This document shows, piece by piece, positions 16,548 through 34,336 of a DNA stretch of 34,336 nt (its first letter is position 1; each line of letters opens with the position of its first letter). The position numbers and the translations under genes were made by a program. Source of the stretch: an uncultured Bacteroidales bacterium (GTDB lineage: Bacteria > Bacteroidota > Bacteroidia > Bacteroidales > Paludibacteraceae); the NCBI GenBank assembly GCA_946059305.1, contig CAMGMU010000016.1, positions 1 to 34,336 on the forward strand, written 5' to 3'. Under the pieces are notes generated by a model. That model worked only from the letters and a program-made list of their open reading frames with translations. It was not told the DNA's origin and did no database searches.

Positions 16548-16784
16548 ATGATTTCTATTGAACACATTCTTTCGCACTGCAACGAGGAGCAGCTCCAAAG
16601 CATCCTCGATTCGTCGCTCACCATCATGAAGCACATGGAGTTCGTTACCGGGCGAACTTGCACGCAGCTCGCCATCGAAGATGATCACTTCTGGAAACTG
16701 TACGGCATAAATGCTCTTACACTTTCCGAACTGGCTGGCCGAGCCCAAGGGCGTCGGCAGCAGCAAACGGATCCCATCGATTGA
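16548..16784 (+). CDS. Small hypothetical protein, paralog of 24300-24530
   Basis: MISIEHILSHCNEEQLQSILDSSLTIMKHMEF aligns with MITIESILQNCTDEELDKLFSASCTITETLLL. Confidence 0.7.
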   Translation: MISIEHILSHCNEEQLQSILDSSLTIMKHMEFVTGRTCTQLAIEDDHFWKLYGINALTLSELAGRAQGRRQQQTDPID

Positions 16785-16790
16785 GCCATC

Positions 16791-16821
16791 GCACCTGCCT
16801 CCTCGGAGGTGGGTGCTTTTT
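16791..16821 (+). terminator. Rho-independent terminator of the ardA cassette
   Basis: GCACCtgCCTCCTCGGAGGtgGGTGC followed by TTTTT. Confidence 0.85.
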
Positions 16822-16935
16822 CTCTTTCGCTTCCCCTCCTCTATGCCCATTTTTTGCCTCCATTTTACTTTGGAATCCCTTTTGAAATGGTGCAGTATAA
16901 AATGCACCTAATGGCTTAGAAATCAGCACTAAAAC

Positions 16936-16966
16936 TTGCATATTTCAGATTTTTTTTGTAACTTTG
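16936..16966 (+). promoter_or_regulatory. Bacteroidetes-type promoter
   Basis: TTG, 20 nt spacer, TAACTTTG; upstream of 17006. Confidence 0.7.
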
Positions 16967-17005
16967 CATCGCTTTTTAAATGAAACCTAACTTTTAAATC
17001 AAACT

Positions 17006-17554
17006 ATGACGGACCATTTACTCTATCTGTCTCTGCCGCCGTACCTTGCTCAATGGTATGCTGACGAGTGCAGGCGAAACGAACAAGCTCGAAGCGACAC
17101 GTACGCTCCAGAGCCCTATCGTTTCCCTCAACCGATTCAGCCCATTCGAGGCTCTCTCGAATCCGGCATTTTGGAGTTGTTCTTAACCAAGCAGCCAGCT
17201 GCTGTTCCACAAGATTTCAAAGAAGGCGCGAATATCGTATTGGCGATTCCTTCGTTCCGAAATCGTGACCCACGTATCTATAACTACTTGCGGCCCTCAG
17301 CGCGCGAAATGCTCCAAGCCGCTATACATACTCGTTTTCAAGTGAAACTGTTTCAAGATATCCATCAATTGGTGGGTCTTGGTAAGGCTCGCAAAGATCT
17401 TACAATCATCGCTTGGATGGAGCAGCACGGTATTGAAGTGGACGATACCAACTACAATTCCGTCCTGAAGGTTTTCGATCGCGTACGGAATACGTATACA
17501 CAGTCCGAGAACCGCAAAATCAAGAAAGAGCGAAAAAAAGTTCAAAAACCGTAA
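17006..17554 (+). CDS. Hypothetical protein, first gene of the capsid unit
   Basis: 182-aa ORF directly downstream of a promoter. Confidence 0.65.
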   Translation: MTDHLLYLSLPPYLAQWYADECRRNEQARSDTYAPEPYRFPQPIQPIRGSLESGILELFLTKQPAAVPQDFKEGANIVLAIPSFRNRDPRIYNYLRPSAREMLQAAIHTRFQVKLFQDIHQLVGLGKARKDLTIIAWMEQHGIEVDDTNYNSVLKVFDRVRNTYTQSENRKIKKERKKVQKP

Positions 17555-17613
17555 CGAACTCAAACGCCTTTTGTCTTTTTAGTCACATCTGTCATTCACC
17601 TATATACGTCACT

Positions 17614-18033
17614 ATGAATACACACTTCTCTCTCCCGGGCATCAAGTCGATAGCAGTCGCTTCTGCAAATGTCCTTCCTTCGGAACTGGCAATGCAGTCT
17701 CTTGCCGGTCTGCCCATATCAGCTCCGTCAACGGCTGAGGACATCCCCTTTCATGGTGAAGCCACATGCGAGTGTACGCAAACGTATGCGCCCGCACTCT
17801 CTGAAACGGTAGAACTCACGTTTTCATCGCTCATAGAGCTTCCTTCGGATACGCACATGGCTATCCTCGTTACTGATGCCAACCGCATCCCATATCTGAT
17901 TGGTACAAAAGAGGAGCATCCTGCCATCGAGCGTCGTCAGACGTTTGGTAACCCTGAGTCGGACTCCAATATTTATACATATACTATACGTATGTCCGCA
18001 CCACGTGCGCTCATACGATGTGTGATAAGGTAA
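17614..18033 (+). CDS. Hypothetical protein
   Basis: 139-aa ORF, same strand and spacing as the surrounding phage genes. Confidence 0.6.
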   Translation: MNTHFSLPGIKSIAVASANVLPSELAMQSLAGLPISAPSTAEDIPFHGEATCECTQTYAPALSETVELTFSSLIELPSDTHMAILVTDANRIPYLIGTKEEHPAIERRQTFGNPESDSNIYTYTIRMSAPRALIRCVIR

Positions 18034-18279
18034 AAGTAGTTAACCTAAACCTAATACTTGAAAAAATCTTTGATACTTCGATTGGCCGGTTCTTGCTCGG
18101 GAGAGTAGGGCCGGTTTGTTGTGAAAAAATGGTCTTTTCGCGCACGCGAAATAAGCAATAATTTTGTGGCAAATTTAAATCTTTGCTATGAACTATCGTG
18201 CCAACGAACGCAGACCAAGCTTGCTTGTGTATGCCGAGTGCAGCCGATAGTCTATAGGCAAAAAACCTTATTATTGACT

Positions 18280-19398
18280 ATGAAAAATTACCATCTTCAC
18301 TTGCGCGGAGTTGTCGGAGGATATGACTTCGACAGCCGCCATGTGCAGAATGTCCTCACTGCCAACAAGAATAAGCAGGTGGACGTTCTTATCGACTCGC
18401 TCGGTGGCTCAGTGGCTACCGCTCTCACTATTGCTTCTGCTTTCCGCGATCATGGCGATGTGCATGTGCATTTCGTGGGCATGAACGCGTCAGCGGCCAC
18501 CATCGCTTCCATGGGTGCCAAGCGCATCACCATGGATAGTTCTGCCATGTACCTCGTACACAAATGCTCCTCGGAGTTCTTCCAATGGGCATCGCTCAAT
18601 GCCGACCAGCTGGAGCAGCAGATCGCTGATCTTACGCAGTTGAAAACCGACTTGGAGAAGATTGATGCCAACGTAGCCACCATGTATGCTAAACGTTGTG
18701 GCAAGGAACGCGACGCGCTCCTTCAACTGATGAAGGTTGGTGGTTGGCTGAACGCTACCGAGGCCAAAGACTGGGGCTTTGTTGATGAAATAACGGATGA
18801 AGCCGAAGACGCAGCGCCTGTGCTCACTGACAGTATTGCATCGGCTATGGCTGCTGTAGGTATGCCCATCCCGAATCTTCCTATTCAGTCGAGTTCGCAG
18901 TTCCAAAAGTTCCTTGCGGCTATGATAGAGTTCTTCCGTGGGGGCAAAGAAGCGCAAGCTAATCCACCCAAACAAACCATAACTATGAAGAAATTTCCAT
19001 TCCTTGCTGCGGTCTTGCTGATGGCAGACGCGCAGATTGCTCTCATAGAGGGCAAGTTCTCCCTGGATGAACAGCAGCTAGGCACGCTCGAAGATGCCCT
19101 CAAGGAGGCCAGCGAGAATGCCGAAGCACTCAAGGCTGCTCAAACCCGTGTTTCGGAGTTGGAGTCCCAACTCTTAGAAGCTAACACCAAAGCCGCCGAA
19201 GCAGCAACCCTGCGCCAGTCGGTAGAGGCTAAGAACCTCGAAATCCAGCAGCTCCAGGCTAAAGCGGAGGAGCTCGGTAAGCAGCCGGGTGACACTACAC
19301 AACAGGTGCATAACAATGCCGGTGAAGGGGTTGAGTCGCCGATGGATGACTTCTTCCAGCGGCTTCAGGCTGCCAAGGCTCTCTACGACATGGTCTGA
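18280..19398 (+). CDS. ClpP-like prohead protease with C-terminal scaffold-like coiled coil
   Basis: VDVLIDSLGGSVATALTIASAF, GMNASAATIASMGAKRITM, SSAMYLVHKCSS; then a long coiled coil; directly precedes the capsid gene. ATG 18280 preferred over 18121. Confidence 0.85.
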   Translation: MKNYHLHLRGVVGGYDFDSRHVQNVLTANKNKQVDVLIDSLGGSVATALTIASAFRDHGDVHVHFVGMNASAATIASMGAKRITMDSSAMYLVHKCSSEFFQWASLNADQLEQQIADLTQLKTDLEKIDANVATMYAKRCGKERDALLQLMKVGGWLNATEAKDWGFVDEITDEAEDAAPVLTDSIASAMAAVGMPIPNLPIQSSSQFQKFLAAMIEFFRGGKEAQANPPKQTITMKKFPFLAAVLLMADAQIALIEGKFSLDEQQLGTLEDALKEASENAEALKAAQTRVSELESQLLEANTKAAEAATLRQSVEAKNLEIQQLQAKAEELGKQPGDTTQQVHNNAGEGVESPMDDFFQRLQAAKALYDMV

Positions 19399-19443
19399 CC
19401 ATGTAACCATTAACATTAAACGCTAATCCTAAACTTATTCATT

Positions 19444-20412
19444 ATGGCAGGAAAACTTCAATTTACTCTGGATGATTTTCAGAAAGCCGCTCATCAGTTC
19501 CGCAAGGAACTCTTGATGCTGCCGATTATCGGCATTAACGACACGCTTCAATTTATGACTCCGCGTCCCGGTATCCGCTACAAGGAATCAGTAGGTGATA
19601 TGTCCGGTGCAGCACAGTTTGCACCCTACAAGCCGAGCCGAAGCGATGACTTCTACCTTAACCTCAACTTCCGCACGCTCGAAACCTTCTTTGGTAACGT
19701 GCATGCCAAGTTTGAACCTAACTCGGCTATCTCTACGCTCCTTGGTACGATCGCGGCACAAGCCAAGGGCGATGGTCAACTCACCGCTCCCACCGCCAAG
19801 CATGTGCTCTCGCTCATTGCCAAGTCATCGTCGGAGAATCTCAACAACGCCATTTGGAAGGGTAAACGTAACCCGAATGGCAACACGTCCATGGACCTCT
19901 TCGATGGCTTCGACACCATCACCGAGAAGGAGATTACCGAGGGCAATATCTCTTTGGAAAAGGGTAACTACCTCAAACTTACTGAGGCCGTCACCTCTGA
20001 AAATGCCTATGATCTGGCTAAGCAAATCCTCTATTCGCTCGACCCTCGTCTGCGTGCTCAGGATTGCTACCTGTTCTGCTCGCAGGACTTCGCCGACAAG
20101 TACAACGATGCCTACCAGCTTACGCACTCGGGCTACGTGTACAACTCGCAGTTCGATCAGGTGGCTGTAGAGGGGTCTAACAACCGTCTTCACATCATTC
20201 CGCTCTTCAACAAGGCAGATTCCAAGTTCATTCACGTCTGCCCCAAGTCGAACATGCTCGTTGGCTACGACCAGATGTCTGACACCGAGTCCGTTATGGT
20301 CAAGGAGTACGAACCGTTCATCCTCTCTTACATCGCTACGATGTTCTTCGGTGTGCAGTTTGAGTCTATCGACAAGCGTCGCTTCAAGGCCATCGAGCTT
20401 GTAGTTGAGTAA
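19444..20412 (+). CDS. Major capsid protein (putative HK97-fold)
   Basis: 322 aa, follows the protease/scaffold gene, MAGKLQFTLDDFQKAAHQFRKELLMLPIIG... and C-terminal FILSYIATMFFGVQFESIDKRRFKAIEL. Confidence 0.7.
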   Translation: MAGKLQFTLDDFQKAAHQFRKELLMLPIIGINDTLQFMTPRPGIRYKESVGDMSGAAQFAPYKPSRSDDFYLNLNFRTLETFFGNVHAKFEPNSAISTLLGTIAAQAKGDGQLTAPTAKHVLSLIAKSSSENLNNAIWKGKRNPNGNTSMDLFDGFDTITEKEITEGNISLEKGNYLKLTEAVTSENAYDLAKQILYSLDPRLRAQDCYLFCSQDFADKYNDAYQLTHSGYVYNSQFDQVAVEGSNNRLHIIPLFNKADSKFIHVCPKSNMLVGYDQMSDTESVMVKEYEPFILSYIATMFFGVQFESIDKRRFKAIELVVE

Positions 20413-20481
20413 CGCAATGATTGAGCGGTTAAACACCGCTCAACAGTATTAAATCTTTAAACCATTAAAACCTATTAAATT

Positions 20482-21234
20482 ATGCCTAATTGTTCTTCTT
20501 TACAGAAATCACTCGCGTGGTGCCAAGGCACTCCCGAGTTCCCCGGCATCAAGCGCCGTTTGTATTACATCTCAAAGGCGAGTATCGCCAAGTGGCCGAC
20601 GCTTCCCACCGATGCTGCTGGCCGTCCTACTGGGGCCGTCTATCAAGGTTCGTTTGTGCTGGTTGCCGATGCTAATTGGAAGTACATCGACATTCTCTCG
20701 GAAAAGTCGCAGCTTACTTCTGAAGCACAGGGTGAAGTACCATCGCAGACGCAGCTCAACAAGCTCACCGCTGTGCATCCGGCAGTAGGCCCTGATGCAA
20801 CTGCCGCATCGGCTTACCTTAACAACTCTGACAACGTCTTCATCATTGAGGATATGAAGGGTAAGTATCGTGTCGTTGGTTCGGATATGTGGAACACCAA
20901 AACCACCGTTAGCCAGGACCTTGGCCAAGGTGCTACAGGAACCACCTCCACTACCATCAATGTGGAAGCAACCGACGTTGTTCCAGCTCCCTTCTATGAA
21001 GGTGAAATCGTTACCGAAGATGGTACTATTGAAGCATCCGGTTCTCAGTCGGGTTCAACCAACACCGGTAGTGGCTCAACGAATACTGGCGGCAGCGGAA
21101 GTGGCTCTACCAATACTGGTAGTGGATCGTCTAACACTGGCGGCAGCGGAAGTGGCTCTACCATTACTGGTAGTGGATCGTCTAACACTGGCGGCAGCGG
21201 AAGTGTTCCAGATGACTTTCCGGGCTATGATTAA
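20482..21234 (+). CDS. Capsid-adjacent structural protein with Ser/Gly/Thr/Asn repeat tail
   Basis: Follows MCP; C-terminal repeats GGSGSGSTNTGSGSSNT. Confidence 0.6.
   Translation: MPNCSSLQKSLAWCQGTPEFPGIKRRLYYISKASIAKWPTLPTDAAGRPTGAVYQGSFVLVADANWKYIDILSEKSQLTSEAQGEVPSQTQLNKLTAVHPAVGPDATAASAYLNNSDNVFIIEDMKGKYRVVGSDMWNTKTTVSQDLGQGATGTTSTTINVEATDVVPAPFYEGEIVTEDGTIEASGSQSGSTNTGSGSTNTGGSGSGSTNTGSGSSNTGGSGSGSTITGSGSSNTGGSGSVPDDFPGYD
21088..21206 (+). repeat. 51-bp coding tandem repeat (17 aa)
   Basis: Copies start at 21088 and 21139 with a partial third from 21190 (GGSGSGSTNTGSGSSNT / GGSGSGSTITGSGSSNT / GGSGS). Confidence 0.85.
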
Positions 21235-21292
21235 TCCGTGTCTGAACTTCACCAATAGCTGCGGAATGGATTATTATTAATGTTCTTTACGA

Positions 21293-21928
21293 ATGGCACT
21301 ATTCGATTTATCTGAAGTTGGAATTGGCGAGGCAAACAGCTCCGCCAGTTCCTCTTTGTCTTCATCGCCTGCTCCCGTCAAAGACCTCTTTGCCGAAGAG
21401 TCTCGCAAGGGGTGGCATAAGCCCGATACGATGGAGGCCCGATGTGACCTTTCAATTGAGCGGCTGACTATGTCACCCCATGCTTCTGTGCCAGTTGTTT
21501 CCATTTGGAAAAAGTCCATCAAAGGACGTAAACTTACGGACATCAAAGCCGACGACTCGATGGTTGTCTATTTTGCTGACCATCTTACGCCCGTTATCCA
21601 GCGTGTGCTCGGTAACTACCTTAGAGAAGGGCATTGGGCTATCTGTGCCACCCCAAAGCGAAGGCATCTCACCCAAAACTTTGCATGCCGAATAGCTGCT
21701 GAGATAGGCCGCCGGCTGCAAATCCCCTACTACGAAGATGTGGCTATTGCTCACTCTCGTCAGCGTGTAGCGGTGGATTTCGATCTTGGCATCTTGCCCA
21801 AAGAGCCGAACCTCATCATCTTTGATGATTTTGTTACAACCGGCTCCACCATTGCCGCCATGAAAAGATTGCTCGACCCATTGGGCAAGAACCTCTTTTT
21901 TGTTGTCGGCATCAATAACAACATGTAA
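21293..21928 (+). CDS. Phosphoribosyltransferase-fold (ComF-like) protein
   Basis: NLIIFDDFVTTGSTIAAMKRL matches the PRPP-binding DDxxTTGST loop; CATPKRRHLTQNFACRIAAEIGRRL. Confidence 0.75.
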   Translation: MALFDLSEVGIGEANSSASSSLSSSPAPVKDLFAEESRKGWHKPDTMEARCDLSIERLTMSPHASVPVVSIWKKSIKGRKLTDIKADDSMVVYFADHLTPVIQRVLGNYLREGHWAICATPKRRHLTQNFACRIAAEIGRRLQIPYYEDVAIAHSRQRVAVDFDLGILPKEPNLIIFDDFVTTGSTIAAMKRLLDPLGKNLFFVVGINNNM

Positions 21929-21947
21929 TTTCTAAACTCTCTATACT

Positions 21948-22748
21948 ATGGATCACGAACTTACTAAAAAAATGCGCGCATGGCTCGAAACTCCTGAAGA
22001 GCAGCGCGACCTCGAAGAGGGCGCACTCTTCGTCCTCCAACTCTCCAATAACCGCATTATGTATCAGGGCTTTATGCGAAATCTCAAGCGTTCTGCCAAG
22101 ATGATTGCCTACCAACTGCAGAAGTATTACAACTTCCGTGTGAAGGACCTCACGCATCAGGAAGTGGCTGAGATGACTGCTCAGGTCAAGAAGATTGCAG
22201 AAAAGGATAATCTTCAGGCCATTCCAACCTCGTCTGAAAACGAATCCAAGGCAGCCGGAGATAATCCATCCCCGGAACTGGTGGCAGCGATTCGCAAAGG
22301 AAGGCGCGTTGACCACGATGCCTTGCCGGAGGATATTCAGGCACTCTATATTGAGAACCTCCATATCATCCAGCGTATGCGTAATCTCCATGCCAAATTG
22401 GAATTGCTGTCGGTGGAACATGCCACCTGTCCTGACTCTGAGCGCTATCCATTCTTGAAAGAGCTAATCGCGCTCGATAAGCAGTACCACGAGAATTGGA
22501 ACACCTATGACCACTACGTGCTCTCCGGTGCACCTGCTCCCGTGGAGGTGAAGATCGATGAGGAAGCAGCCTCTTTGCCGGAGCAAGTTTCTGAGACTGT
22601 GCCTGGTGAGACTTGCCCAGCTTCCGAGCCCGCTGATTCTGAGAAAGCGCCTGCAACTTCCGCGCCCGAGCCTGCTCCTGCTCCGGCAGAACCGAAGAAG
22701 AAAGGCAAGCGCCAATCCTCCACCTCTAAATCCACTAAAAAGGCATGA
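21948..22748 (+). CDS. Hypothetical protein with low-complexity Pro/Ala/Glu and Lys-rich tail
   Basis: 266-aa ORF in the operon; tail ASEPADSEKAPATSAPEPAPAPAEPKKKGKRQSSTSKSTKKA. Confidence 0.65.
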   Translation: MDHELTKKMRAWLETPEEQRDLEEGALFVLQLSNNRIMYQGFMRNLKRSAKMIAYQLQKYYNFRVKDLTHQEVAEMTAQVKKIAEKDNLQAIPTSSENESKAAGDNPSPELVAAIRKGRRVDHDALPEDIQALYIENLHIIQRMRNLHAKLELLSVEHATCPDSERYPFLKELIALDKQYHENWNTYDHYVLSGAPAPVEVKIDEEAASLPEQVSETVPGETCPASEPADSEKAPATSAPEPAPAPAEPKKKGKRQSSTSKSTKKA

Positions 22749-22823
22749 ATGGAATAGCCGCCCGATGTATGCTTGCATTGGCAACTCGGTGCAGCATTTC
22801 ATTCATAAATTACGTAGTAACGT

Positions 22824-23342
22824 ATGAAAAGAGGTGTAGGCATTGACGACCTTCTCAAGCCGCTGTCCAGCCACCCCACGCAGTGCTATCTCACGAATGT
22901 GCTGCAGGTGGCTGACGTGCTTGAGTGGGTATTGAAGCAGGTCGGCAAATCAACGGTTTGGCAGACATCCTTCTCTATCTCCGAGGAGTTCCTCCGTCGC
23001 CTTTACTTTATCGAAAAAAGTGGTCGTGTGAATACCATCCACCTTATACTCGATTTCAAGGCCACGCAGAAAACGCTCAAACTTTGGCCCTTTCTCACCA
23101 AGGTTATTGAGCATACCTACCTTGCGGACAATCATTCCAAAGTGATACTCATCCAATCCGACGCGGGTGATAAGGTCTCCATTATCACCTCACAGAACCT
23201 CACCCGAGGTAACCGTATGGAGGGTGCAGTGGTTTCAACCGATTCGCATGTGTTTGATACCTTCCATGCCTCGCTCGAGGATATTATCATTAATCACTCC
23301 GTGCCGCTCTCGGAGTTGTTCAAACAGAAGATTGCACAATGA
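22824..23342 (+). CDS. Phospholipase D-like superfamily protein
   Basis: NHSKVILIQSDAGDKVSIITSQNLTRGNRMEGAVVSTD resembles HxK....D...GSxN.T...E, with imperfect catalytic positions. Confidence 0.65.
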   Translation: MKRGVGIDDLLKPLSSHPTQCYLTNVLQVADVLEWVLKQVGKSTVWQTSFSISEEFLRRLYFIEKSGRVNTIHLILDFKATQKTLKLWPFLTKVIEHTYLADNHSKVILIQSDAGDKVSIITSQNLTRGNRMEGAVVSTDSHVFDTFHASLEDIIINHSVPLSELFKQKIAQ

Positions 23343-23584
23343 AGTCAGCCGCTCTACCTTACATTCATATTTCTACCGCCAAGCATCTGCTCGCGCAGCC
23401 TGACCCTGTTTCACTTGTCGTCTGGAAGCGCGATGGTTCGCTCGTTACCTACGAGAATGTTATCTCAATCTCTTATGATTTCTACAAGGGTACTCGGCAT
23501 ATCAAGTTCTTGCGTTCGGGCGAAATTCGCTTGGTGCGTGATGTGTGCATCTATAAGCTTAACGGTATGCAGGTGATTCTGTAG
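23339..23584 (+). CDS. Small hypothetical protein
   Basis: 81-aa ORF overlapping the previous stop by ATGA. Confidence 0.6.
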   Translation: MKSAALPYIHISTAKHLLAQPDPVSLVVWKRDGSLVTYENVISISYDFYKGTRHIKFLRSGEIRLVRDVCIYKLNGMQVIL

Positions 23585-23636
23585 TATCGTTGCTTTTTTT
23601 ATTAACTTTCATATTTTTCGAATCGTTTTACTTATA

Positions 23637-23666
23637 GCCGGATTATGATGTAGTCCGGCGTTTTTT
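23637..23666 (+). terminator. Rho-independent terminator
   Basis: GCCGGA-(11 nt)-TCCGGC followed by GTTTTTT. Confidence 0.85.
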
Positions 23667-23674
23667 GTCGTTCT

Positions 23675-23852
23675 TTTTAGCAATGCAAAGTTAGTTGGTT
23701 CTCTCCGTATGGCAAGGCCAAGGCGAGTTCCGTACCGCAAGCTAAGAAATCTTCCTTTTTCCTGTTGAGCCGGAAAAGCGTATTTCTTCCGGAAGTCTTG
23801 CTGTTCACGTCGTGGGTCACCCCGCTTCGCTAACTGATATAGCATTGTAAAA
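23675..23852 (+). promoter_or_regulatory. Structured leader/repeat element, copy B
   Basis: TTTTAgCAATGCAAAGTTAGTTGGTT...ATGGCAAGGC...GTCACCCCGCTtCGCTAACTGATATAGCATTGTAAAA, shared with copy A; the variable middle has its own pairing (AGAAAT/ATTTCT, TTTTCC/GGAAAA). Confidence 0.75.
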
Positions 23853-23912
23853 ATAACAAAAACACCGAAACATCATTCATCCTATAAGTTTAACATTCAA
23901 AATTTTACAGTT

Positions 23913-24248
23913 ATGAAAAAGCAAAATTCTAACGTACAGAACACCGCAGTTGAAACCGCAAAGCAGAGCGCACGTAAGCAGCTCAAGAGTCTCTCGAACA
24001 GCCTCATGGAACTCGCTAAGGCCGAAGGTCGTACGGATGTATCCATCAATGAGCTTTTGAGAGAAGCATATCAGCTCGTAGGTAAGCAGCTTAAAACCTT
24101 CGAAGCTTGGCAGGCCGAAGGCGCCAACATCCGCAGAGGTCAGCGCGCCTACCTCTTCTGGGGCGCACCTGTAGAAACAGAAGCCGGTTATCGCTACTGT
24201 CCAGTGAAATATCTCTTCTCACAAGAGCAAGTTCACGTAGCTCACTAA
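23913..24248 (+). CDS. ArdC N-terminal-like (ssDNA-binding) small protein, tentative
   Basis: TFEAWQAEGANIRRGQRAYLFWGAPV...CPVKYLFSQEQV resembles the ArdC N-terminal 'TF.qa...Gg.VrkGekg..v.fw' pattern; 111 aa, no protease domain. Confidence 0.5.
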   Translation: MKKQNSNVQNTAVETAKQSARKQLKSLSNSLMELAKAEGRTDVSINELLREAYQLVGKQLKTFEAWQAEGANIRRGQRAYLFWGAPVETEAGYRYCPVKYLFSQEQVHVAH

Positions 24249-24257
24249 TGTTTAATT

Positions 24258-24283
24258 GCCCCCGAGCCGTAAAGCAAGGGGGC
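24258..24283 (+). other. Intercistronic hairpin without U-tract
   Basis: GCCCCC-(14 nt)-GGGGGC just after the ArdC-like stop; same relative position as 16494-16515. Confidence 0.6.
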
Positions 24284-24299
24284 TTCAAATCTCCACATT

Positions 24300-24530
24300 A
24301 TGATAACGATTGAATCCATCTTACAGAACTGCACCGATGAGGAGCTCGATAAATTGTTTTCTGCATCGTGCACCATCACGGAAACCCTTCTTCTCAACGC
24401 GGATATGGATAGTACCCAATTGATGATTGAAAGCCGCGCGTATTTTTATGCTAACCTTGTTCAGATAAGCGCTTTTGATGAAATTCGCAATCGCGCGAAA
24501 GGCCTGAAAGAGCATAAGTATAACCATTAA
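24300..24530 (+). CDS. Small hypothetical protein, paralog of 16548-16784
   Basis: MITIESILQNCTDEELDKLFSASCTITETLLLNADMDSTQLMIE. Confidence 0.7.
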   Translation: MITIESILQNCTDEELDKLFSASCTITETLLLNADMDSTQLMIESRAYFYANLVQISAFDEIRNRAKGLKEHKYNH

Positions 24531-24543
24531 CACTTCACTAATT

Positions 24544-24714
24544 ATGGCTAAAGAAATTCGTTATTACCTGTGTAACCGTCATAGAGAAGTCCTCTACCAA
24601 TACGGCTGTTTCACCAGTCTCGAAGCGGCTGAAATCAAGTTCCGCACCATCCTTTACAACACTTCTGGCGATTGTCCTGTCTGTGGCATCAGAGCTTTTG
24701 AGGAAGAAGTGTAA
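24544..24714 (+). CDS. Small Cys-containing protein, possible zinc ribbon (56 aa; not in ORF track)
   Basis: MAKEIRYYLCNRHREVLYQYGCFTSLEAAEIKFRTILYNTSGDCPVCGIRAFEEEV. Confidence 0.6.
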   Translation: MAKEIRYYLCNRHREVLYQYGCFTSLEAAEIKFRTILYNTSGDCPVCGIRAFEEEV

Positions 24715-24723
24715 AGTACAACA

Positions 24724-24765
24724 AGCGCTCATCCCAATAGGGTGGGCGCTTCTGCTGTCTTTTCG
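24724..24765 (+). terminator. Terminator-like hairpin closing cassette B
   Basis: AGCGCTCATCCC-AATA-GGGTGGGCGCT followed by a T-rich but not continuous tract. Confidence 0.6.
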
Positions 24766-24782
24766 TGTGCGTGTGCGTAGCA

Positions 24783-24790
24783 GTAACTTT
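24783..24790 (+). promoter_or_regulatory. -7 box of a Bacteroidetes-type promoter upstream of the portal gene
   Basis: TAACTTTG; -33 not clear. Confidence 0.5.
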
Positions 24791-24813
24791 GCAGCATAAT
24801 CAGTAAAGTCGCT

Positions 24814-26133
24814 ATGCAAACCTATTTTACTCCCTCCGTTGAAACCATCCCTGGCGTTAATGCCAAGGTGGTTTTTACACCAGATACCACAACGCTCTTT
24901 AAGGAGTCTATTGATATTCCGAATCTTGTTATCAACGACAAGACATCCATCGTACCTTGGGGCGCAGACAACCTCATGCCTTACGACATCCTGAATAAGA
25001 TAGAGGCCGACGAAACGCTCACCACCTGCCAGACCTTCAATGCTGAAGTCTGTTATGGTGGTGGCATCAACTATTGTACGAGAGATGCAAGTAAGCAGAC
25101 GAAGCAGGAAGTGGAGGACTTCCTTTTTGAGAATAATATGGCAGATTACTACCTCGGTGCTTGCCTCGACTTCAAGCACTTTGGTTTTTGTGTATCACTT
25201 CTGATTCTCTCAAAGGATGGTACGCGCATCACGAATATTATCCGCAAAGAGGCTGCCAATTGTCGCTTCACGCCCGCTGACGGGCATGGCGTTTCCAAAG
25301 AGGTGCTCTTTGCTAATTGGGAATCTACGGATTTAAGTCAGATAGAGCATATGCCCTTGCTCTCCCTCATCAATCCGTGGCGCGATCTGCAATCACGAAT
25401 GCAGAACGGCGATAAGCATCGAAAGTTTGCTGTGGTTTCACGCATCCCTACAGCGCGCAACACGTATTATCCTATCCCTTATTACGCTTCGATTTTCAGG
25501 TCTCGCTGGTACGATATCAAGCAGCTGATTACAACGGCCAAGAAAGCCAAGCTCGAGAACTCGGCTCCCATTAAATATCAGATTGAGATTTCCGCTCGCT
25601 ATTGGGAGAAACTGTTTATCTCTAAGGGTATCACGTCCATTGAGGATAAACGCGTTGCTGTCAATGAATCCAAGCAGCAGATGATTGATTTCCTTACCCG
25701 CGCAGAGAACTCGGGCAAGGTGCTCTTTTCGGAGTTCTACCAAACGCCCGATGGCAAGGAGCAGCAGGAAGTTCGCATCACCACCATTGCCACCGGCAAA
25801 GAGGGTGGGGACTGGGAAACGGACATCCAAGAGGCTATCAACATCATGTGCTTCACCCTGCGCGTTCACTCTAATCTCGTAGGCTCCGTTCCGGGAAAAG
25901 CACAAACCAACAACTCCGGTTCTGACAAGCGCGAGCTGTACACCATCGCGCAGGCCCTACAGAAGCCATACCATGATATTCTTTTCATGCCGCATCGGAT
26001 AATTATCCGCTACAACGGATGGGATGGAGTGCATGTAGATTGTCCATTCATTCAGCTCACCACGCTCGACGAGCATCGTGATGCCAAACTTGTAACCACA
26101 AACCAAGACAACAATGATACTGATAACCAATGA
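24814..26133 (+). CDS. Phage portal protein
   Basis: 439 aa; VPWGADNLMPYDILNKIEADETLTTCQTFNAEVCYGGGI...; position in the packaging module. Confidence 0.75.
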   Translation: MQTYFTPSVETIPGVNAKVVFTPDTTTLFKESIDIPNLVINDKTSIVPWGADNLMPYDILNKIEADETLTTCQTFNAEVCYGGGINYCTRDASKQTKQEVEDFLFENNMADYYLGACLDFKHFGFCVSLLILSKDGTRITNIIRKEAANCRFTPADGHGVSKEVLFANWESTDLSQIEHMPLLSLINPWRDLQSRMQNGDKHRKFAVVSRIPTARNTYYPIPYYASIFRSRWYDIKQLITTAKKAKLENSAPIKYQIEISARYWEKLFISKGITSIEDKRVAVNESKQQMIDFLTRAENSGKVLFSEFYQTPDGKEQQEVRITTIATGKEGGDWETDIQEAINIMCFTLRVHSNLVGSVPGKAQTNNSGSDKRELYTIAQALQKPYHDILFMPHRIIIRYNGWDGVHVDCPFIQLTTLDEHRDAKLVTTNQDNNDTDNQ

Positions 26134-26953
26134 TGCGCAGCTGCGTTCGTATGTACCCAATGCGCTGGTCACCGTGACGGGTGAGATGTCTCTCTTCGAT
26201 AAGATGCGTACTGATTTGGCGCTTTCCGAGCAGTGGCTTACCATCCATTTTGTGGATGCTTCTCTTTTAGGAAAGATTGCCTTGGAGAAAGAACATAATG
26301 AAGCCGCAAACATATGCTGTCGTGCCGTCGTGGCCGACGCACTCCTTCGGGCTATTCCCTCGCTAGACCTCGTTCTTACCCCCAACGGCTTCGGTATCGT
26401 GTCCAACCAAAATGTCGCACCTGCATCCAAGGATCGTGTGGACCGTCTCCTTTCGAACCTTGAACTCGTTCGCGACCGCTCTCTGCAGCAGCTGCTCTAT
26501 CTGCTCCCCAAGGCGGCCACCTCGGAATGGCTTCAGTCGGAGGCGGGGAAGTATTTCGCTGCAACGCTCTTCCCATACCTCGACCTGCCATCGCTCCTTG
26601 GTTATACCGATAAACTGTGGGAACGGTATCAGCAGTATTGGGCACAACTGAAACTTATCGAAGCTGAACTCGCTGATAAGTTTATCTCTTCAGAGGTCTA
26701 TGCCCGATTGCGTCAACGCTTCATCGAGGACTCGTGCGACATCGTTGAACTCGACCTCGTGAATCGCCTGCGTGCCATCGAACTCGCTCTCCTCAAGGGG
26801 AAGCCGCTCGATATGCAGGCCCTTCATGCCATCGTAACCTATATCCGTAAGAATCCAGCGGATTTTCCAGAGTGGGTAGCTTCTGAAACTGCCACTCATT
26901 TTTCGGATCAATCGTTTCACAATTCTAAACAGTCCGGCGGTTACTGGTTTTAG
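26114..26953 (+). CDS. Phage structural protein (possibly DUF6712-like head-completion)
   Basis: 279 aa, overlaps portal end; composition resembles Bacteroidetes phage head-completion proteins (tentative). Confidence 0.55.
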   Translation: MILITNDAQLRSYVPNALVTVTGEMSLFDKMRTDLALSEQWLTIHFVDASLLGKIALEKEHNEAANICCRAVVADALLRAIPSLDLVLTPNGFGIVSNQNVAPASKDRVDRLLSNLELVRDRSLQQLLYLLPKAATSEWLQSEAGKYFAATLFPYLDLPSLLGYTDKLWERYQQYWAQLKLIEAELADKFISSEVYARLRQRFIEDSCDIVELDLVNRLRAIELALLKGKPLDMQALHAIVTYIRKNPADFPEWVASETATHFSDQSFHNSKQSGGYWF

Positions 26954-26959
26954 CCGCCA

Positions 26960-27682
26960 ATGATTATGAACTTAAATCTAACCGTGCCTACCTGTTGGCA
27001 GGAACTCAATCAAAAACAACTTCGTTATGTGTACTACTTGCTCGCAGAGGGCTACTCCAAAGAAGCCCTTCAAACGCATTGCCTCTGCCGGTGGTCCGGC
27101 CTCGAAATTCTTTGTCCGGAAGGAGATGGCTACAGCGTACGCCACAACTTCGCTCGCCATCATGTAACGGCTCTTCAAGTGGCAGAAGTATTATCGCACG
27201 TTGACTGGCTACTGCAACTTCCTTTTGTGCCGGTACGTCTCTCTGAGATTCAGGGCCACGCAGCTGCACGAGCCGACCTACAGGGCGTCAGCTTTGAGCA
27301 GTACCTCATCCTCGAAAACCTCTTCCAGGGCTATCTCGTCACCAAGAACCTTTCCTTGTTTGATGATACTACGGAAATCCTCTATGGTACGCAGCTCAAA
27401 CTGCTTCCGGAGGAGCAAGTGAGTGTCTTCTATTGGCTCTCATCTGTAAAACAAGTGTTTGCCCGCCGATGGAATCACTTCTTCAAACCCACGGGTGGGG
27501 AGCAGCATATGAATATGGAAGCTCATCTGCAGAACCTGATGGACACTCAGATTCGTGCGCTAACCAAAGGCGATATCACCAAGGAACCTGAGGTGCTCTC
27601 GATGGATGTGCATCGGGCGTTGACGGAACTTAATGCCCAAGCTAAAGATTACGAAGAACTCAAAAAATCTGCCAAATCATGA
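26960..27682 (+). CDS. Hypothetical phage protein
   Basis: 240-aa ORF in a tightly packed operon. Confidence 0.65.
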   Translation: MIMNLNLTVPTCWQELNQKQLRYVYYLLAEGYSKEALQTHCLCRWSGLEILCPEGDGYSVRHNFARHHVTALQVAEVLSHVDWLLQLPFVPVRLSEIQGHAAARADLQGVSFEQYLILENLFQGYLVTKNLSLFDDTTEILYGTQLKLLPEEQVSVFYWLSSVKQVFARRWNHFFKPTGGEQHMNMEAHLQNLMDTQIRALTKGDITKEPEVLSMDVHRALTELNAQAKDYEELKKSAKS

Positions 27683-28167
27683 ACTGGAACGCAACCGCTT
27701 TTTTCGAGAAACTGACGGAAACCAACCGCTTGGCACAGCAGGAGCATTTCCGCTTCTGCAGTGTCAGCGGATTGCAGGGGTTTGAGGAAGCGTTGGCCGC
27801 CATGGGCAGCACTACTGCATTTGTATGCGTAGCAGATAACTCTGATGGTTATACTGACATCAACAACTCGCCTCATACGCGTCGTATTAAAACCGTGTTC
27901 ATGGCAATGCGCCATGCACTCGATAGCCAAGATGCACGATTAGAGTGCATCTATACGATGCGGGAACTGTTTCGGCAGTTTATGTCGGTGCTTATTCTTG
28001 AGAAGACCAAGCTGCAGGAGGATAATATCTACCTCGACCCGCGAGTCCGTTTTACTGAGATACCTCAGTATTTTGCATCAGGATGCGCTTGCGCATACTT
28101 TCAGATAGCTGTTGATATTTATACCGATCTTCGTCTTAATCCGTCAGAGTGGTCATCCGCAAAATAA
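27679..28167 (+). CDS. Hypothetical phage protein
   Basis: 162-aa ORF, ATGA overlap with previous gene. Confidence 0.65.
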   Translation: MNWNATAFFEKLTETNRLAQQEHFRFCSVSGLQGFEEALAAMGSTTAFVCVADNSDGYTDINNSPHTRRIKTVFMAMRHALDSQDARLECIYTMRELFRQFMSVLILEKTKLQEDNIYLDPRVRFTEIPQYFASGCACAYFQIAVDIYTDLRLNPSEWSSAK

Positions 28168-28174
28168 TGTAACT

Positions 28175-28450
28175 ATGAATTATACCGTCGAACAACTCAA
28201 TATGATTGAGCAATATGCATCCATCTATCTCCCAATATCGGATATAGCCGTGATTTTGGAAATCACTCCGGAGCAACTCCGTGAGGATATCCATGACAGC
28301 CAAAATCCAGCCTCTTTCCACTACCGCAAAGGCAAGGCTCTCTCCAAGGTGCAGCTCCACCAGCAAGAGATGACGCTTGCCAAGGTGGGCTCACCGCTTG
28401 CTTTGCAGAATGCTCGCGATAACCTGCTCGCCATGGAGGATGATGAATAA
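28175..28450 (+). CDS. Small HTH-like protein, possible packaging accessory
   Basis: MNYTVEQLNMIEQYASIYLPISDIAVILEITPEQLREDI resembles an HTH. Confidence 0.55.
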   Translation: MNYTVEQLNMIEQYASIYLPISDIAVILEITPEQLREDIHDSQNPASFHYRKGKALSKVQLHQQEMTLAKVGSPLALQNARDNLLAMEDDE

Positions 28451-28470
28451 CATTAAACCAAACCTTAACT

Positions 28471-29103
28471 ATGCCATTACCTGCAATTATTACAGTTGCC
28501 ACAGCTGACCTCTTTACCGATGAGGCCACGCTTCGTAAGAAGTACCAAGAGGTGCAAGTTACGCACATCCTGCGGCTTCGTGATATGTACAATTGGTATC
28601 TCTCCAACCCTGATGCGCATGACCGCCAGTTTGTGGATCAATGCCGTTCGCGTTATTCTCTTGGTAAGTCGCAAGCCTACGAAGACCTTGCGCTTATCAA
28701 GAAGCTTCTTCCTGCACTGTCGCAGTCTTCCCGAGATTTCCATCGCTGGAAAGCCAACGAGATGCTGCTGGAAACCTACCGTATGGCCAAAGCTCGTAAA
28801 GATACCAAAACCATGGAGAAAGCAGCTTCGGCTTATGCCAAGTACAATCGTGTGGATATTGAAGATGAGCAGGTGATGCCTTACGATGATATCGTTATCC
28901 AGCCGTTCCGTGCTACCATGGATCCTACTGTTCTTAACCTGAAGCCTATTCCGAACATAGACGATAAGATTGCAGCTATGATTGCACGTTATTCCAAGGA
29001 ATCCATGGATATAGAAGATGTAGAATATGAAGAAGCCGACCTCGACGAACAGGAGCTTTTCGCCGAGCCGGACAGCACTCCTGATGAACCCTTTATTGTC
29101 TGA
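28471..29103 (+). CDS. Terminase small subunit-like
   Basis: FVDQCRSRYSLGKSQAYEDLALIKKLLP helix-turn-helix-like region; directly upstream of TerL; acidic tail. Confidence 0.6.
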   Translation: MPLPAIITVATADLFTDEATLRKKYQEVQVTHILRLRDMYNWYLSNPDAHDRQFVDQCRSRYSLGKSQAYEDLALIKKLLPALSQSSRDFHRWKANEMLLETYRMAKARKDTKTMEKAASAYAKYNRVDIEDEQVMPYDDIVIQPFRATMDPTVLNLKPIPNIDDKIAAMIARYSKESMDIEDVEYEEADLDEQELFAEPDSTPDEPFIV

Positions 29104-29105
29104 CT

Positions 29106-30749
29106 ATGCAAAAAGAAATTTACTTCAATAAACCGCAGTTGCGCACGCAACTTATTGGCGCAAACACTACAGTCATAGTAGCTGGCCGCCGTACAGGAAA
29201 GACGGATTCTATCGCATCGCCTTTCGTTTTCCGGAATATGCAACGGATGGCTGGTTCAACCGGTGGTATAGTCGTGCCTACCTTCAAGCATGGTCTTACT
29301 AATACTATTCCTGGTTTACTCTCAGCGTGGCGCCGATGGGGGCTTCTCCCCGGTGTGCATTATGTGGTCGGACGGAAACCGCCCAAGTCCTTTAAGTCTG
29401 CTATTATCGAGCCTACCGATTATGAGCACGTGATATCGTTTTATAATGGTTCACGAGCCATCATCATTTCGCAAGACCGTCCGGGTTCTTCCAACTCACT
29501 CACGCTGAGCTGGCTACTCATCGATGAGGCAAAATTTATCGATTTCGAGAAATTGAAGGATGAAACCCTTCCGGCTAATGGTGGTATCAAATCGTACTTC
29601 GGCAAGCACTCTTTCAACCACTCAATAATGATACTCTCCGACATGCCGCAAACCAAGAAAGGCTCATGGTTCTTGCATTATAAGGAGAAAATGGATGCGG
29701 AGCTTATCCGCACCATTGAGGCTACTGTTTATGAAATATGGAAAATCAAGGAGCGCATACGCTCTGACAAAGCGGCAGGCCTCAAGAGTCCGGATTATCT
29801 ACGCTCTCGGCTACGTAAACTCGACCGCCAGCTCAATCAGATGCGCTCAGTAGCTGTCTATTATCAAGAATATAGTTCTATTGAAAACCTGCAACTTCTT
29901 GGGGAAAACTACATTAAGCAGATGAAGCGCGATTTAACGCCTCTTACGTTTCAGACTTCTATCCTCTGCAAGAAGATTGGTATTGCCAAGGATGGCTTCT
30001 ATTCTTCGATGAGGGAATCGCACAAATATGATGCTTCCAACTTTGAGTATTTGGATAAAGTGTGGCAGAATATCGAGCAGTCGCACGTTGCTCCAACAAC
30101 TGCTTTCACCTCGGATGCTGACCGAGATGTCAATCCCGATGCACCTATCTGTATCGGCATGGACTATAATGCCAACATCAACTGGATTGTTGCCGGTCAA
30201 ATTTCAGGAAGAAGGCTTAATGTCATCAAGTCCTTCTACGTAAAATTTGAGCGCAAGATTCCGGAATTGATTGCTGATTTCTGCCACTACTATAAAGGGC
30301 AAAGAAACAAAACAGTCATATTTTATTACGATGCTACGGCACTTGGTTCGAACTACGCTGTGAACACCCAAGACTTCCATTGGGTGATCAAAACACAGTT
30401 CGAGCAGCAGGGATGGCGCGTGATAGACGTCTATCTCGGCCAACCGATGCGTCATGATGAGAAGTACCTGCTCATCAATAACGCTTTCAAGGGCCTGCAA
30501 AACCTCATGCCTTTCTTCAATCGTCAGAACAACGATGACCTGATTCTCGCCATCCAAACGGCAGGTGTCAGCCGAGGCCGACTCGGCTTCCGAAAGAATA
30601 AGTCCGGCGAGAAACTTGCCGAAACCGAGGAGGATCTGCTTCAGCATCGTACCGATGGCACCGACGCATTTGATACCCTCTACATCGGCTGTGAGAAATT
30701 TCCTCAGGAGGTCAGTTCTACCGATATTTTTGTTTCTGGAGTGGGATAA
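29106..30749 (+). CDS. Terminase large subunit
   Basis: VIVAGRRTGKTDS (Walker A), LTLSWLLIDEAKFID (Walker B), CIGMDYNANINWIVAGQ (nuclease Asp). Confidence 0.9.
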   Translation: MQKEIYFNKPQLRTQLIGANTTVIVAGRRTGKTDSIASPFVFRNMQRMAGSTGGIVVPTFKHGLTNTIPGLLSAWRRWGLLPGVHYVVGRKPPKSFKSAIIEPTDYEHVISFYNGSRAIIISQDRPGSSNSLTLSWLLIDEAKFIDFEKLKDETLPANGGIKSYFGKHSFNHSIMILSDMPQTKKGSWFLHYKEKMDAELIRTIEATVYEIWKIKERIRSDKAAGLKSPDYLRSRLRKLDRQLNQMRSVAVYYQEYSSIENLQLLGENYIKQMKRDLTPLTFQTSILCKKIGIAKDGFYSSMRESHKYDASNFEYLDKVWQNIEQSHVAPTTAFTSDADRDVNPDAPICIGMDYNANINWIVAGQISGRRLNVIKSFYVKFERKIPELIADFCHYYKGQRNKTVIFYYDATALGSNYAVNTQDFHWVIKTQFEQQGWRVIDVYLGQPMRHDEKYLLINNAFKGLQNLMPFFNRQNNDDLILAIQTAGVSRGRLGFRKNKSGEKLAETEEDLLQHRTDGTDAFDTLYIGCEKFPQEVSSTDIFVSGVG

Positions 30750-30875: not shown

Positions 30876-30971
30876 ATGCTCGCAAAAGTGCGAGCCATTC
30901 TGCTTTTGTTGAGCGGGATGTCCGTCAATGAAAAAATATGGAAAAACTTAAAAAAAGAGGGTAGGAACTAG
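30876..30971 (+). CDS. Tiny ORF downstream of TerL with its own promoter (uncertain)
   Basis: TATCTTTG at 30851-30858, then MLAKVRAILLLLSGMSVNEKIWKNLKKEGRN; a longer +1-frame extension is described in findings. Confidence 0.3.
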   Translation: MLAKVRAILLLLSGMSVNEKIWKNLKKEGRN

Positions 30972-31247
30972 TGATTCTGCCCTCAGCAGGAAGACCTACG
31001 AACGTCGGCTTCGTCGATGTCAGCGTCACCTGCAGCGATTGGAGGCGCAAGAACGTCTTAAGTGTCAAACCAACGAGTTGATCAGGCAAGTGCGACAGCT
31101 CCTAGATGAACTCTCAAAATTGGCTAACTCAGATATATCGTAGCCGCTGATTTTGACACAGAAGAGGCATGAATGGCTCTGTTTGTGCAACTAAAGTGCC
31201 CCAAATAGCCTTAGAATGCATAAATTTTTAAATTTATTGCATTTTTC

Positions 31248-31278
31248 TTGCATATTTCAAAAATAAAGTGTAACTTTG
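31248..31278 (+). promoter_or_regulatory. Bacteroidetes-type promoter
   Basis: TTGCATATTTCA...TAACTTTG with 20 nt between TTG and TAACTTTG, same layout as 16936-16966. Confidence 0.75.
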
Positions 31279-31283
31279 CACAG

Positions 31284-31499
31284 CTTTAGCTAAACGTGTG
31301 TAGAGTTAGAGCTTTGACATATTAGTAAAGAAGTTGCAGTTTCGCAGTTCGGTCATGAAGGAATGGGAACCAAATATGATGCTGAATACGTACTCGACAA
31401 CTGCTCATGCCTCTTGGTGTGGGCGTTTCGTTGTATTCAGCTTGGGGCCGGTTCCCAAAACTTTGCCCTCTTCATGGCAACGAACCCCACACCTTTTTT
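31284..31499 (+). ncRNA. Candidate free-standing structured ncRNA
   Basis: Promoter at 31248-31278; nested helices CATGAAG/CTTCATG, GGGAACC/GGTTCCC, GCTGAATAC/GTATTCAGC; overlapping helix GGTGTGGGcgtTTCGTT/AACGAAcCCCACACC ending in TTTTTT. Confidence 0.65.
31479..31499 (+). terminator. 3' arm and T-tract of the ncRNA terminator
   Basis: AACGAACCCCACACC (pairs with 31416-31432) followed by TTTTTT. Confidence 0.65.
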
Positions 31500-31553: not shown

Positions 31554-32123
31554 ATGAAGAAGTTTTTGCTTTTGATTATTACCGTTATCGCATTCAACTT
31601 TGCTACCGCACAGGAGCATATGAGATTTAAAGGAATAGAAATGAATGGTTCTTTGAATTCTTTTGTATCTCAGTTACAATCTAAAGGATTGAAGGAGTCA
31701 TATGCAGAAGGAAATATTGCTAAGCTATCCGGTGACTTTGCTTCTTACCATGATTGTACTATTGTCGTTATAGCTAATAACAATGATAATGTGGTTAAAG
31801 TTGATGTTAAATTTCCGTATCAAACTACTTGGTCATTGCTTTATAATAACTATTCGAATATTAAGGATATGCTGATTATGAAATATGGTAAGTGCTCAAA
31901 TTCCGTTGAAAAATGGGATGGTACTTATCAACCGTCAGACGATAGGGAACGTATGTATAGAGTGCAAATGGATCGTTGTAAATACGTTTCTAAATGGGAG
32001 ACTGAGAATGGAGATATTGAATTGACAATTTCTCATAATAACAATCTATGCTATATTACGCTGTCATATTTCGATAAACAGAATCAAGCTCAAACAATTC
32101 AAAACGCTATTGATGATCTTTAG
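31554..32123 (+). CDS. Secreted/periplasmic hypothetical protein
   Basis: Signal peptide MKKFLLLIITVIAFNFATAQ; 189 aa. Confidence 0.75.
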   Translation: MKKFLLLIITVIAFNFATAQEHMRFKGIEMNGSLNSFVSQLQSKGLKESYAEGNIAKLSGDFASYHDCTIVVIANNNDNVVKVDVKFPYQTTWSLLYNNYSNIKDMLIMKYGKCSNSVEKWDGTYQPSDDRERMYRVQMDRCKYVSKWETENGDIELTISHNNNLCYITLSYFDKQNQAQTIQNAIDDL

Positions 32124-32221: not shown

Positions 32222-33136
32222 ATGTCTAGTTCCCAACAAATAAAGGAATATTTCTGGATGCTGCAAGTTCTCCAGTCCGGACCAATTACCAAACGCGAAA
32301 TTGATTCTCGTTGGTCTCGTTCTGCACTCAATGAAAATGGTGTCTCAACAATTGTTGATAGCCGCTTTCATCGTCATCTTAGAGCAATAGAGAAGATTTT
32401 TGGCGTTACTGTCGAGTGTAATAAAAAATCAAATGTTTATGAGTATTACATCAAAGAGTCGGAGTCTGAAATCGGACAGCAACATCAATGGTATCTTTCC
32501 GGTCTCGCTATTGGCAATACGCTGAAAGAATGTGAGAACTTGCGAGGGCGAATCCTCTTTGAGAATATTCCTGGTGGTACACAGTTTCTTCCAACTATGG
32601 TAGATGGTATGCAAAACAACTTGGTACTTTCAATGTGTTATGGTAGTTTTGTTAGGGAAGCTCGCGAATTTTTCTTCCATCCATATGCTATCAAGGTGTT
32701 CAAGCAACGTTGGTATGCGGTAGGATACAGCTCAGCTCATCCGGAAGACGAGGTACGTGTTTATGCATTCGACCGAATATTGAGCCTCAAACTCACCAAG
32801 GAACATTTTTCGATGCCGGCTGATTTCGATGCCGAGGAATATTTCTCAAAGTGCTATGGTGTTACAGTTGGCAATATCGGCCCTGTAGAACGCATTCATA
32901 TTCGAGTAGCTAAAACAGGAGTACCATATCTTCGAACACTACCTTTGCATAAGTCGCAGGAGGAAATTGAAACTACGGATGAATATTCCGTTTTTGAGTA
33001 TTTCTTAGCACCCAATAAAGAATTTAAACTGGAACTACTTTCTCGCAGTGAAGAAGTAGAGGTACTTACTCCTCAGTTTTTACGCGACGAATTCGCTAAA
33101 ATTGCTGCTGCACAAAATGATAGATATAATGTATAA
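32222..33136 (+). CDS. WYL-domain transcriptional regulator
   Basis: FFFHPYAIKVFKQRWYAVGYSSAHPEDEVRVYAFDRILSLKLT matches the WYL domain; N-terminal winged-helix-like region. Confidence 0.85.
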   Translation: MSSSQQIKEYFWMLQVLQSGPITKREIDSRWSRSALNENGVSTIVDSRFHRHLRAIEKIFGVTVECNKKSNVYEYYIKESESEIGQQHQWYLSGLAIGNTLKECENLRGRILFENIPGGTQFLPTMVDGMQNNLVLSMCYGSFVREAREFFFHPYAIKVFKQRWYAVGYSSAHPEDEVRVYAFDRILSLKLTKEHFSMPADFDAEEYFSKCYGVTVGNIGPVERIHIRVAKTGVPYLRTLPLHKSQEEIETTDEYSVFEYFLAPNKEFKLELLSRSEEVEVLTPQFLRDEFAKIAAAQNDRYNV

Positions 33137-33330: not shown

Positions 33331-34336
33331 ATGGCAAAGAAAATAAGTAAAAAAGATGAGACTCTGAATCTTGAGAATATATTGTTCAGGTGTCGGAATA
33401 TTTTAAGGCAGGCGAAGAACTCGGGGTCGTTCTTTGAGAAACGCGACATGATGCTTACTCTCGTGTTCCTTCGCTTTATTGGCGAGAAATACGAGGATGG
33501 AGTGGCTGCGCTTCGTAAAAAGCTCATCGAGGAAGGCTTAGACCCTGATAACGAACAAATTATCAAGGCGTTCTTTGATGATGCTACTTTTGCAGATGGC
33601 ACTTTCGATTTGCCAATAGAGGCTCGTTGGTCGACCATTATCAATACGGCTGCATCCCAGTTGAATGTGGCCCTTGATATAGCTTTACGTAGAATAGGCG
33701 AATCTAATCCTACGCTAAAAGGCTGTTTCGTGGAGGGTACATTTACCCAACGCAATCTTGGCGGTAACGACATGAAGAAGATTGTGGATGAGGTCAACAA
33801 AATCAGCCATAAGAAGTTTGGCGAGGAGAAAGACCTGATAGGCCGCGTATATGAATATTTCCTAAAGGAGTTTGCCGTAAATGCCACGAAGGAGGAGGGT
33901 GAGTTCTATACGCCACATGATGTTGTGCAGCTCATCGCTACTGTTATCGAACCTTTCGATGGCACATTGTATGACCCATGTTGTGGCTCCGGCGGCATGT
34001 TCATTCAAAGCTCCGACCTAGTGAAAGCCAAACAGGGCGACATCAGTCGTATCAATGTGTATGGACAGGAGAAGGAGGCCGCCACCTATCGTTTGGCGAA
34101 GATGAACCTCGCTCTGCGTGGCATCAGCCACCATCTGGGGTCGGAAAGTGAATCCACTTTCACCAAGGACCTGCATAAGGGGCTGTATTTCGACTATATT
34201 ATGGCCAATCCACCTTTTAATTATAAAACCTGGTATAATGACGATTTGAAGAACGACCCTCGTTGGACAGACTATGCTACTCCTCCTGAGAGCAATGCCA
34301 ATTATGCCTGGATTCTTCACATGCTCTCCCACCTGA
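33331..34336 (+). CDS. hsdM: Type I restriction-modification methyltransferase subunit (HsdM), truncated by window end
   Basis: MAKKISKKDETLNLENILFRCRNILR..., EGEFYTPHDVVQLIATVIEP, YDPCCGSGGMFIQS, IMANPPFN; frame open to the end of the window. Confidence 0.92.
   Translation, partial: MAKKISKKDETLNLENILFRCRNILRQAKNSGSFFEKRDMMLTLVFLRFIGEKYEDGVAALRKKLIEEGLDPDNEQIIKAFFDDATFADGTFDLPIEARWSTIINTAASQLNVALDIALRRIGESNPTLKGCFVEGTFTQRNLGGNDMKKIVDEVNKISHKKFGEEKDLIGRVYEYFLKEFAVNATKEEGEFYTPHDVVQLIATVIEPFDGTLYDPCCGSGGMFIQSSDLVKAKQGDISRINVYGQEKEAATYRLAKMNLALRGISHHLGSESESTFTKDLHKGLYFDYIMANPPFNYKTWYNDDLKNDPRWTDYATPPESNANYAWILHMLSHL

Follow-up and report, generated by a model that had tools for sequence, protein, structure and literature searches.

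We describe a structured RNA at positions 31248-31499 of a 34,336-nt contig (CAMGMU010000016.1, hereafter the window) from an uncultured Bacteroidales bacterium of the Paludibacteraceae. The RNA is a member of a real, so far unlisted family that is spread across Bacteroidota: we gathered 113 distinct members, all of them from this phylum. A promoter is followed by three nested helices, a long-range pseudoknot and a run of U residues (U-run); the structure, its covariation, a strand common to two helices, the U-run and the gene context are what the sequences show. From comparison of these sequences, we suggest that the RNA is probably a cis-acting, terminator-controlled 5' leader that governs transcription of the operon behind it.

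A structured RNA family of Bacteroidota

Within the genus (178 genomes), BLAST matches only the promoter part, a motif that occurs genus-wide. A family-level search of 358 genomes gave one weak match that is a true homologue, with stems that differ in letters yet pair, and most of the other short matches were due to chance; no homologue was found by BLAST among phage and plasmid records. A pattern of conserved pieces led to four viral contigs, and a covariance model built from these four with the window excluded (R1) recovers the window with a score of 56.6 bits (E 2.3e-13; E-values from our purpose-built covariance models are rough). R1 detected about 20 copies in 14 of the 178 genus genomes, up to 4 of them in a single genome. 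A widened model (R2) detected the RNA in 29 of the 358 family genomes, the weakest matches, near E 0.003-0.01, being individually uncertain, and a third model (R3) did so in 24 of 299 genomes sampled phylum-wide. The sense strand scores 204 bits and the opposite strand 27; antisense model matches, which arise from the palindromic build, are left out of the counts. When all GTDB genomes were scanned with a DNA pattern, 56 of the 58 loci returned came from Bacteroidota. R3, which was not trained on these loci, recognises the Bacteroidota ones, with E-values of 1e-8 to 1e-21 for almost all, but leaves both off-phylum loci unmatched. Where several copies reside together (four genomes, one of them with four copies), all differ in sequence type, although these cases are too few for significance.

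A sequence-only reading of this stretch had pointed to 6S, retron, riboswitch and Bacteroidales motifs as identities to look for in Rfam. Rfam 15 gave no family at the gathering cutoff in the window or in the roughly 40 loci scanned, and the scan, which covered 6S, 6S-flavo, Bacteroidales-1, Flavo-1, retron, c4, T-box and SAM riboswitches, matched none of them. Permissive limits also gave no family on the window's RNA stretch, and the strongest matches below threshold, within or next to the RNAs, are chance-like.

The scaffold is well supported by homologues. The three helices that the sequence-only reading had nested, 31354-31360/31470-31476 (P2), 31365-31371/31450-31456 (P3) and 31381-31389/31433-31441 (P4), recur with compensatory changes, and the promoter and all the blocks it named are present. 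Once members had been aligned by covariance models of P2-P5, which bias the counts for P2-P5 toward those helices, 19 distinct close members had two-sided changes in 22 of 24 pairs (P2 8/8, P3 6/7, P4 8/9), and 98 % of their P2-P4 cells pair, compared with 82 % when shuffled and 30-48 % when slid. With 32 distinct members, 96 % pair and two-sided changes are seen in 8/8, 7/7 and 8/9 pairs, respectively. Homologues that destroy the pairings without compensation would have spoken against the structure; we saw the opposite, compensation that keeps the pairings. The order beyond chance that had been claimed is real as well, since the RNA folds at -71.9 kcal/mol compared with -55.2 (standard deviation 4.7) after dinucleotide shuffling (z -3.58; none of 200 shuffles folded as well). 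In the internal loops by P2 and P3 there are conserved unpaired bases (AA after P2, GG before P3' and CCU before P2'), and a ligand or protein could bind there. Several homologues have a 5' hairpin with different letters, and others lack one.

Exclusive pairings of the loop strand

Strand 3 of the loop (consensus GGYGYGGG) pairs in two ways. With strand 2 it forms a loop hairpin additional to the earlier reading (P5; mean 7.65 of 8 over 113 members), and with the tail it forms a pseudoknot helix in register with the U-run (PK2; mean 7.79 of 8 over the 110 members having the tail), both means being somewhat raised by choosing, for each member, the best-pairing register in a range of a few bases. 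One position varies jointly in all three strands, C-G-G in 83 and U-A-A in 15 of the 113 members, and this joint change is unaffected by the choice of register. PK2 is absent from all models, and 97 % of its cells pair in the 19 distinct members. The computed strengths of P5 and PK2 are similar (-13.8 and -16.7 kcal/mol; shuffled tails, -8.3). Because both helices need strand 3, they are mutually exclusive, and the competition between pseudoknot and terminator that had been proposed is thus supported at the level of pairing. The loop/tail pairing itself needs one refinement: its GGTGTGGG/CCCACACC core is backed by compensation in homologues, whereas the TTCGTT/AACGAA part is specific to the window. 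A U-run of at least 4 is present in 108 of the 113 members.

A second pseudoknot, PK1, also goes beyond the earlier reading. It joins a strand at the RNA's 5' end to the 5' half of the loop, with a mean helix score of 5.69 compared with 5.04 for permuted strands (maximum of 200, 5.24), and its letters vary as AGCAUU/AAUGCU, AGCGUU/AACGCU, GCAGUU/AACUGC and AGUUUGC/GCAAACU. In the window a second GCAGUU copy at 31344-31349 is a possible alternative strand 1. As in an attenuator, two exclusive helices have one strand in common and one of them precedes the U-run; as read from the sequences, the four-strand order 1:2 (PK1), 2:3 (P5) and 3:4 (terminator) is an attenuator layout on a pseudoknotted scaffold. 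By eye, the 5' region holds no conserved ATG frame, and the reading frame of the loop shifts among members.

The common strand with its three-way covariation, taken with the U-run, argues for a terminator switch. Starting from its own promoter, the RNA would fold the long hairpin scaffold P2-P3-P4. Pairing of strand 2 with strand 3 (P5) would leave the tail free, so that polymerase would read into the defence or surface-protein gene, and PK2, between strand 3 and the tail, would give an 8-10 bp helix ending at the U-run and hence termination. PK1, by engaging strand 2 with the 5' end, would favour the PK2, terminated state, and the balance would be tipped by some signal, which may bind the conserved bases in the scaffold's internal loops. 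Termination, read-through, the direction of control and the signal are what we infer here.

Two side observations concern the 3' end. One member has lost its tail, and its RNA is joined to an AlbA_2 gene, possibly as a broken terminator. In six others a tRNA gene begins a few bases past the U-run; its anticodon, judged by eye, is GGC, which probably makes it a tRNA for alanine.

Genes behind the RNA

Among members with an open reading frame (ORF) of at least 100 aa within 600 nt downstream, the next ORF lies in the sense orientation in 94 of 96 (p 1e-25; median gap 70 nt), and on the upstream side the figure is 69 of 99; gene starts are mechanical ORF calls, and kinship of the genomes is ignored both here and in the tally of gene classes below. 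Considering gaps of up to 300 nt, we saw a consensus promoter between U-run and gene in a single case. The earlier reading as a free-standing non-coding RNA is therefore not supported, and the fixed orientation, the short gap and the lack of a promoter between U-run and gene point to a cis-acting leader.

Pfam and PADLOC name the next gene as a type I, II, IIG or III methyltransferase, a type III restriction enzyme, a PLD-SNF2 helicase, AlbA_2, a BspA-type leucine-rich repeat (LRR) protein or a TonB receptor. RNA subtype and downstream gene class go together. In subtype A, 28 of 37 genes are restriction-modification (RM) or helicase genes and none is a surface gene; the window-type subtype has defence genes in 15 of 20, mostly AlbA_2; subtype B has LRR genes in 9 of 16 and no RM; and TonB receptors make up 15 of 28 in the phylum-wide set. 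These labels were spread by BLAST from 33 scanned proteins, such that 'unlabelled' means dissimilar to those rather than functionless.

In the window the RNA sits between a phage head-packaging module ending in a prophage terminase gene and a type I RM island; downstream come the genes for a small secreted protein, then a WYL regulator and finally HsdM (Table 1). Most related elements have a terminase homologue ahead of the RNA. The related elements keep the same joint and vary in cargo (AlbA_2, type I RM, MmeI-like or other RM genes, helicases), usually ending with a WYL regulator. None of 80 IMG/VR relatives of the terminase has such an RNA, which is therefore no invariable component of that head module. 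The module (15899-30749) encodes anti-restriction ArdA, head protease, portal and terminase, and no tail genes or integrase were recognised in the window; a small basic ORF without a Pfam match (30952-31143) lies between terminase and RNA. Three related 14-kb elements keep a small ORF, the RNA and defence cargo, with a primase-like gene in place of the capsid genes. In many members from orders other than that of the window, a divergently oriented XRE/HTH gene lies 110-145 nt upstream.

Table 1. Features of the RNA and its neighbours in the window (all on the + strand)
Feature	Position	Sequence or partner	Basis
Terminase large subunit, phage, upstream of RNA	29106..30749		
Promoter, Bacteroidota type	31248..31278	TTG 31248-31250, 20 nt, TAACTTTG 31271-31278	sequence
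5' hairpin, immediately after presumed start	31283..31312		RNA folding
Strand 1	31336..31341	GCAGUU; PK1 with strand 2	permuted-strand control
P2 5' side	31353..31360	UCAUGAAG; with 31470-31477	two-sided changes
P3 5' side	31365..31371	GGGAACC; with 31450-31456	two-sided changes
P4 5' side	31381..31389	GCUGAAUAC; with 31433-31441	two-sided changes
Strand 2, PK1 part	31399..31404	AACUGC; with strand 1	
Strand 2, P5 part	31404..31411	CUCAUGCC (DNA CTCATGCC); with strand 3	
Strand 3, common to P5 and terminator helix PK2	31416..31423	GGUGUGGG (DNA GGTGTGGG)	three-strand covariation
P4 3' side	31433..31441		two-sided changes
P3 3' side	31450..31456	GGUUCCC	two-sided changes
P2 3' side	31470..31477	CUUCAUGG	two-sided changes
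Strand 4 (tail)	31486..31493	CCCACACC; PK2/terminator with strand 3	
U-run of predicted intrinsic terminator	31494..31499	T6	
Small secreted protein, first gene after leader, 60 nt from U-run start	31554..32123		Pfam scan without match
WYL/WCX regulator	32222..33136		Pfam
HsdM, type I RM methyltransferase, runs off contig	33331..34336		

Alternative readings and known systems

Several points weigh against a terminator-controlled leader. The strict promoter consensus TAnnTTTG lies upstream of only 71 of the 113 members, and in the TonB-receptor subtype the gap of 200-300 nt has room for a second promoter of a different type. In most subtypes P5 and PK1 have only about two bases in common, and in some they have none; PK1 is therefore not necessarily an anti-antiterminator. 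PK2 would need either a pseudoknot around P2-P4 or their opening, and termination by such a helix is only predicted. The counts for P2-P5 lean toward the helices used in alignment, and the wide range of genes suggests no obvious common ligand.

With its own promoter and terminal U-run, and with some members far from the next gene, the RNA could instead act in trans, as an independent small RNA that ends in a pseudoknotted intrinsic terminator and is retained close to the genes it targets. We think this unlikely, given the orientation and proximity of the next ORF, the match of subtype to gene class, and the conserved loop strands, which are consumed by internal pairing. The conserved scaffold and the position right after the promoter, ahead of long horizontally moving operons, would suit a processive antitermination leader of the put RNA or LoaP-dependent type, acting on polymerase so that long foreign operons are fully read. 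However, such a leader does not explain why strand 3 pairs with a tail that abuts the U-run, no NusG-like gene was seen in the window, and we regard the idea as improbable. An immunity or incompatibility RNA of phages and satellites, of the c4 antisense or P4 CI RNA type, has in its favour the fixed joint of phage-like elements and the different alleles of all co-resident copies in four genomes. It is very improbable in our estimate, because members across the phylum adjoin RM and surface genes without phage genes, and it is the presumed specificity loop that is conserved and the stems that vary. Least probable by our reckoning is a DNA-level recombination site (an attC-like hairpin) for cargo swapping: cargo does switch directly behind the element, and RNA alleles and cargo are reassorted, but the U-run is conserved, a promoter lies upstream, many pairs are G-U, and the model score favours one strand. 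We rejected 6S RNA, for which one conserved copy per genome is expected, on the copy numbers in the genus; a retron msr-msd on the downstream genes (RM, AlbA_2, LRR, TonB), with no reverse transcriptase recognised in the window; a phi29-type packaging RNA on the members without terminase nearby; and a coding sequence on its reading frame, which is not kept. A tRNA-like reading was considered and dropped.

Among published RNAs, HMP2_4205 is a 132-bp palindromic Bacteroidetes candidate, a predicted terminator-type structured RNA near TPR genes (PMC8040213). The main text of that paper gives no pseudoknot or RM link for it or other palindromic candidates, which sets them apart by description, although it is possible that the published list contains a piece of our RNA (PMC8040213). 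RNA control of RM is known in the form of antisense RNAs, for EcoRI and a second type II system; those are antisense transcripts, and both they and the RNA described here would act on RM genes at the RNA level, and no leader attenuator or riboswitch came up in this RM-regulation review (PMC3874152). Searches of open-access main texts turned up no leader RNA of RM genes.

How restriction is kept off until a new host is methylated has largely been explained by controller proteins and antisense RNAs. If our preferred reading is true, a structured leader before type I, II, IIG and III RM genes in one phylum would amount to a general RNA control layer for defence genes. The same switch core before surface receptors raises the question of which single signal these genes have in common. 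It is conceivable, though in our view doubtful, that Bacteroidota and their mobile elements carry a phylum-wide double-pseudoknot attenuator switch before their phage-facing genes (RM, AlbA_2 and helicase genes and those for TonB and leucine-rich surface proteins), and that it responds to a single shared cue, for instance infection or entry into a new cell.

Our comparisons with trp attenuators, put RNA, LoaP, P4 and phage-inducible chromosomal islands draw on general knowledge. The islands, with and without their own capsid, resemble the window's module and the 14-kb elements, respectively. Like c4 antisense RNA (RF01695), the present RNA is linked to phages and satellites and has complementary loop and flank segments; in contrast, it has no Rfam match, and its distribution and gene context are different. 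It shares with put RNA, LoaP-dependent leaders and UpxY-type antitermination in Bacteroides a position just behind the promoter that drives a long operon, but no NusG-like partner was found in the window, and its terminator-like tail has a strand in common with the fold. The trp-type attenuators and terminator riboswitch leaders likewise have four strands that form 1:2, 2:3 and 3:4 helices, with 3:4 abutting the U-run and a sense gene next. Here, however, no leader peptide was seen, the genes are those for RM, AlbA_2, LRR and TonB proteins, and the 1:2 and 3:4 helices are pseudoknots around a conserved three-helix scaffold.
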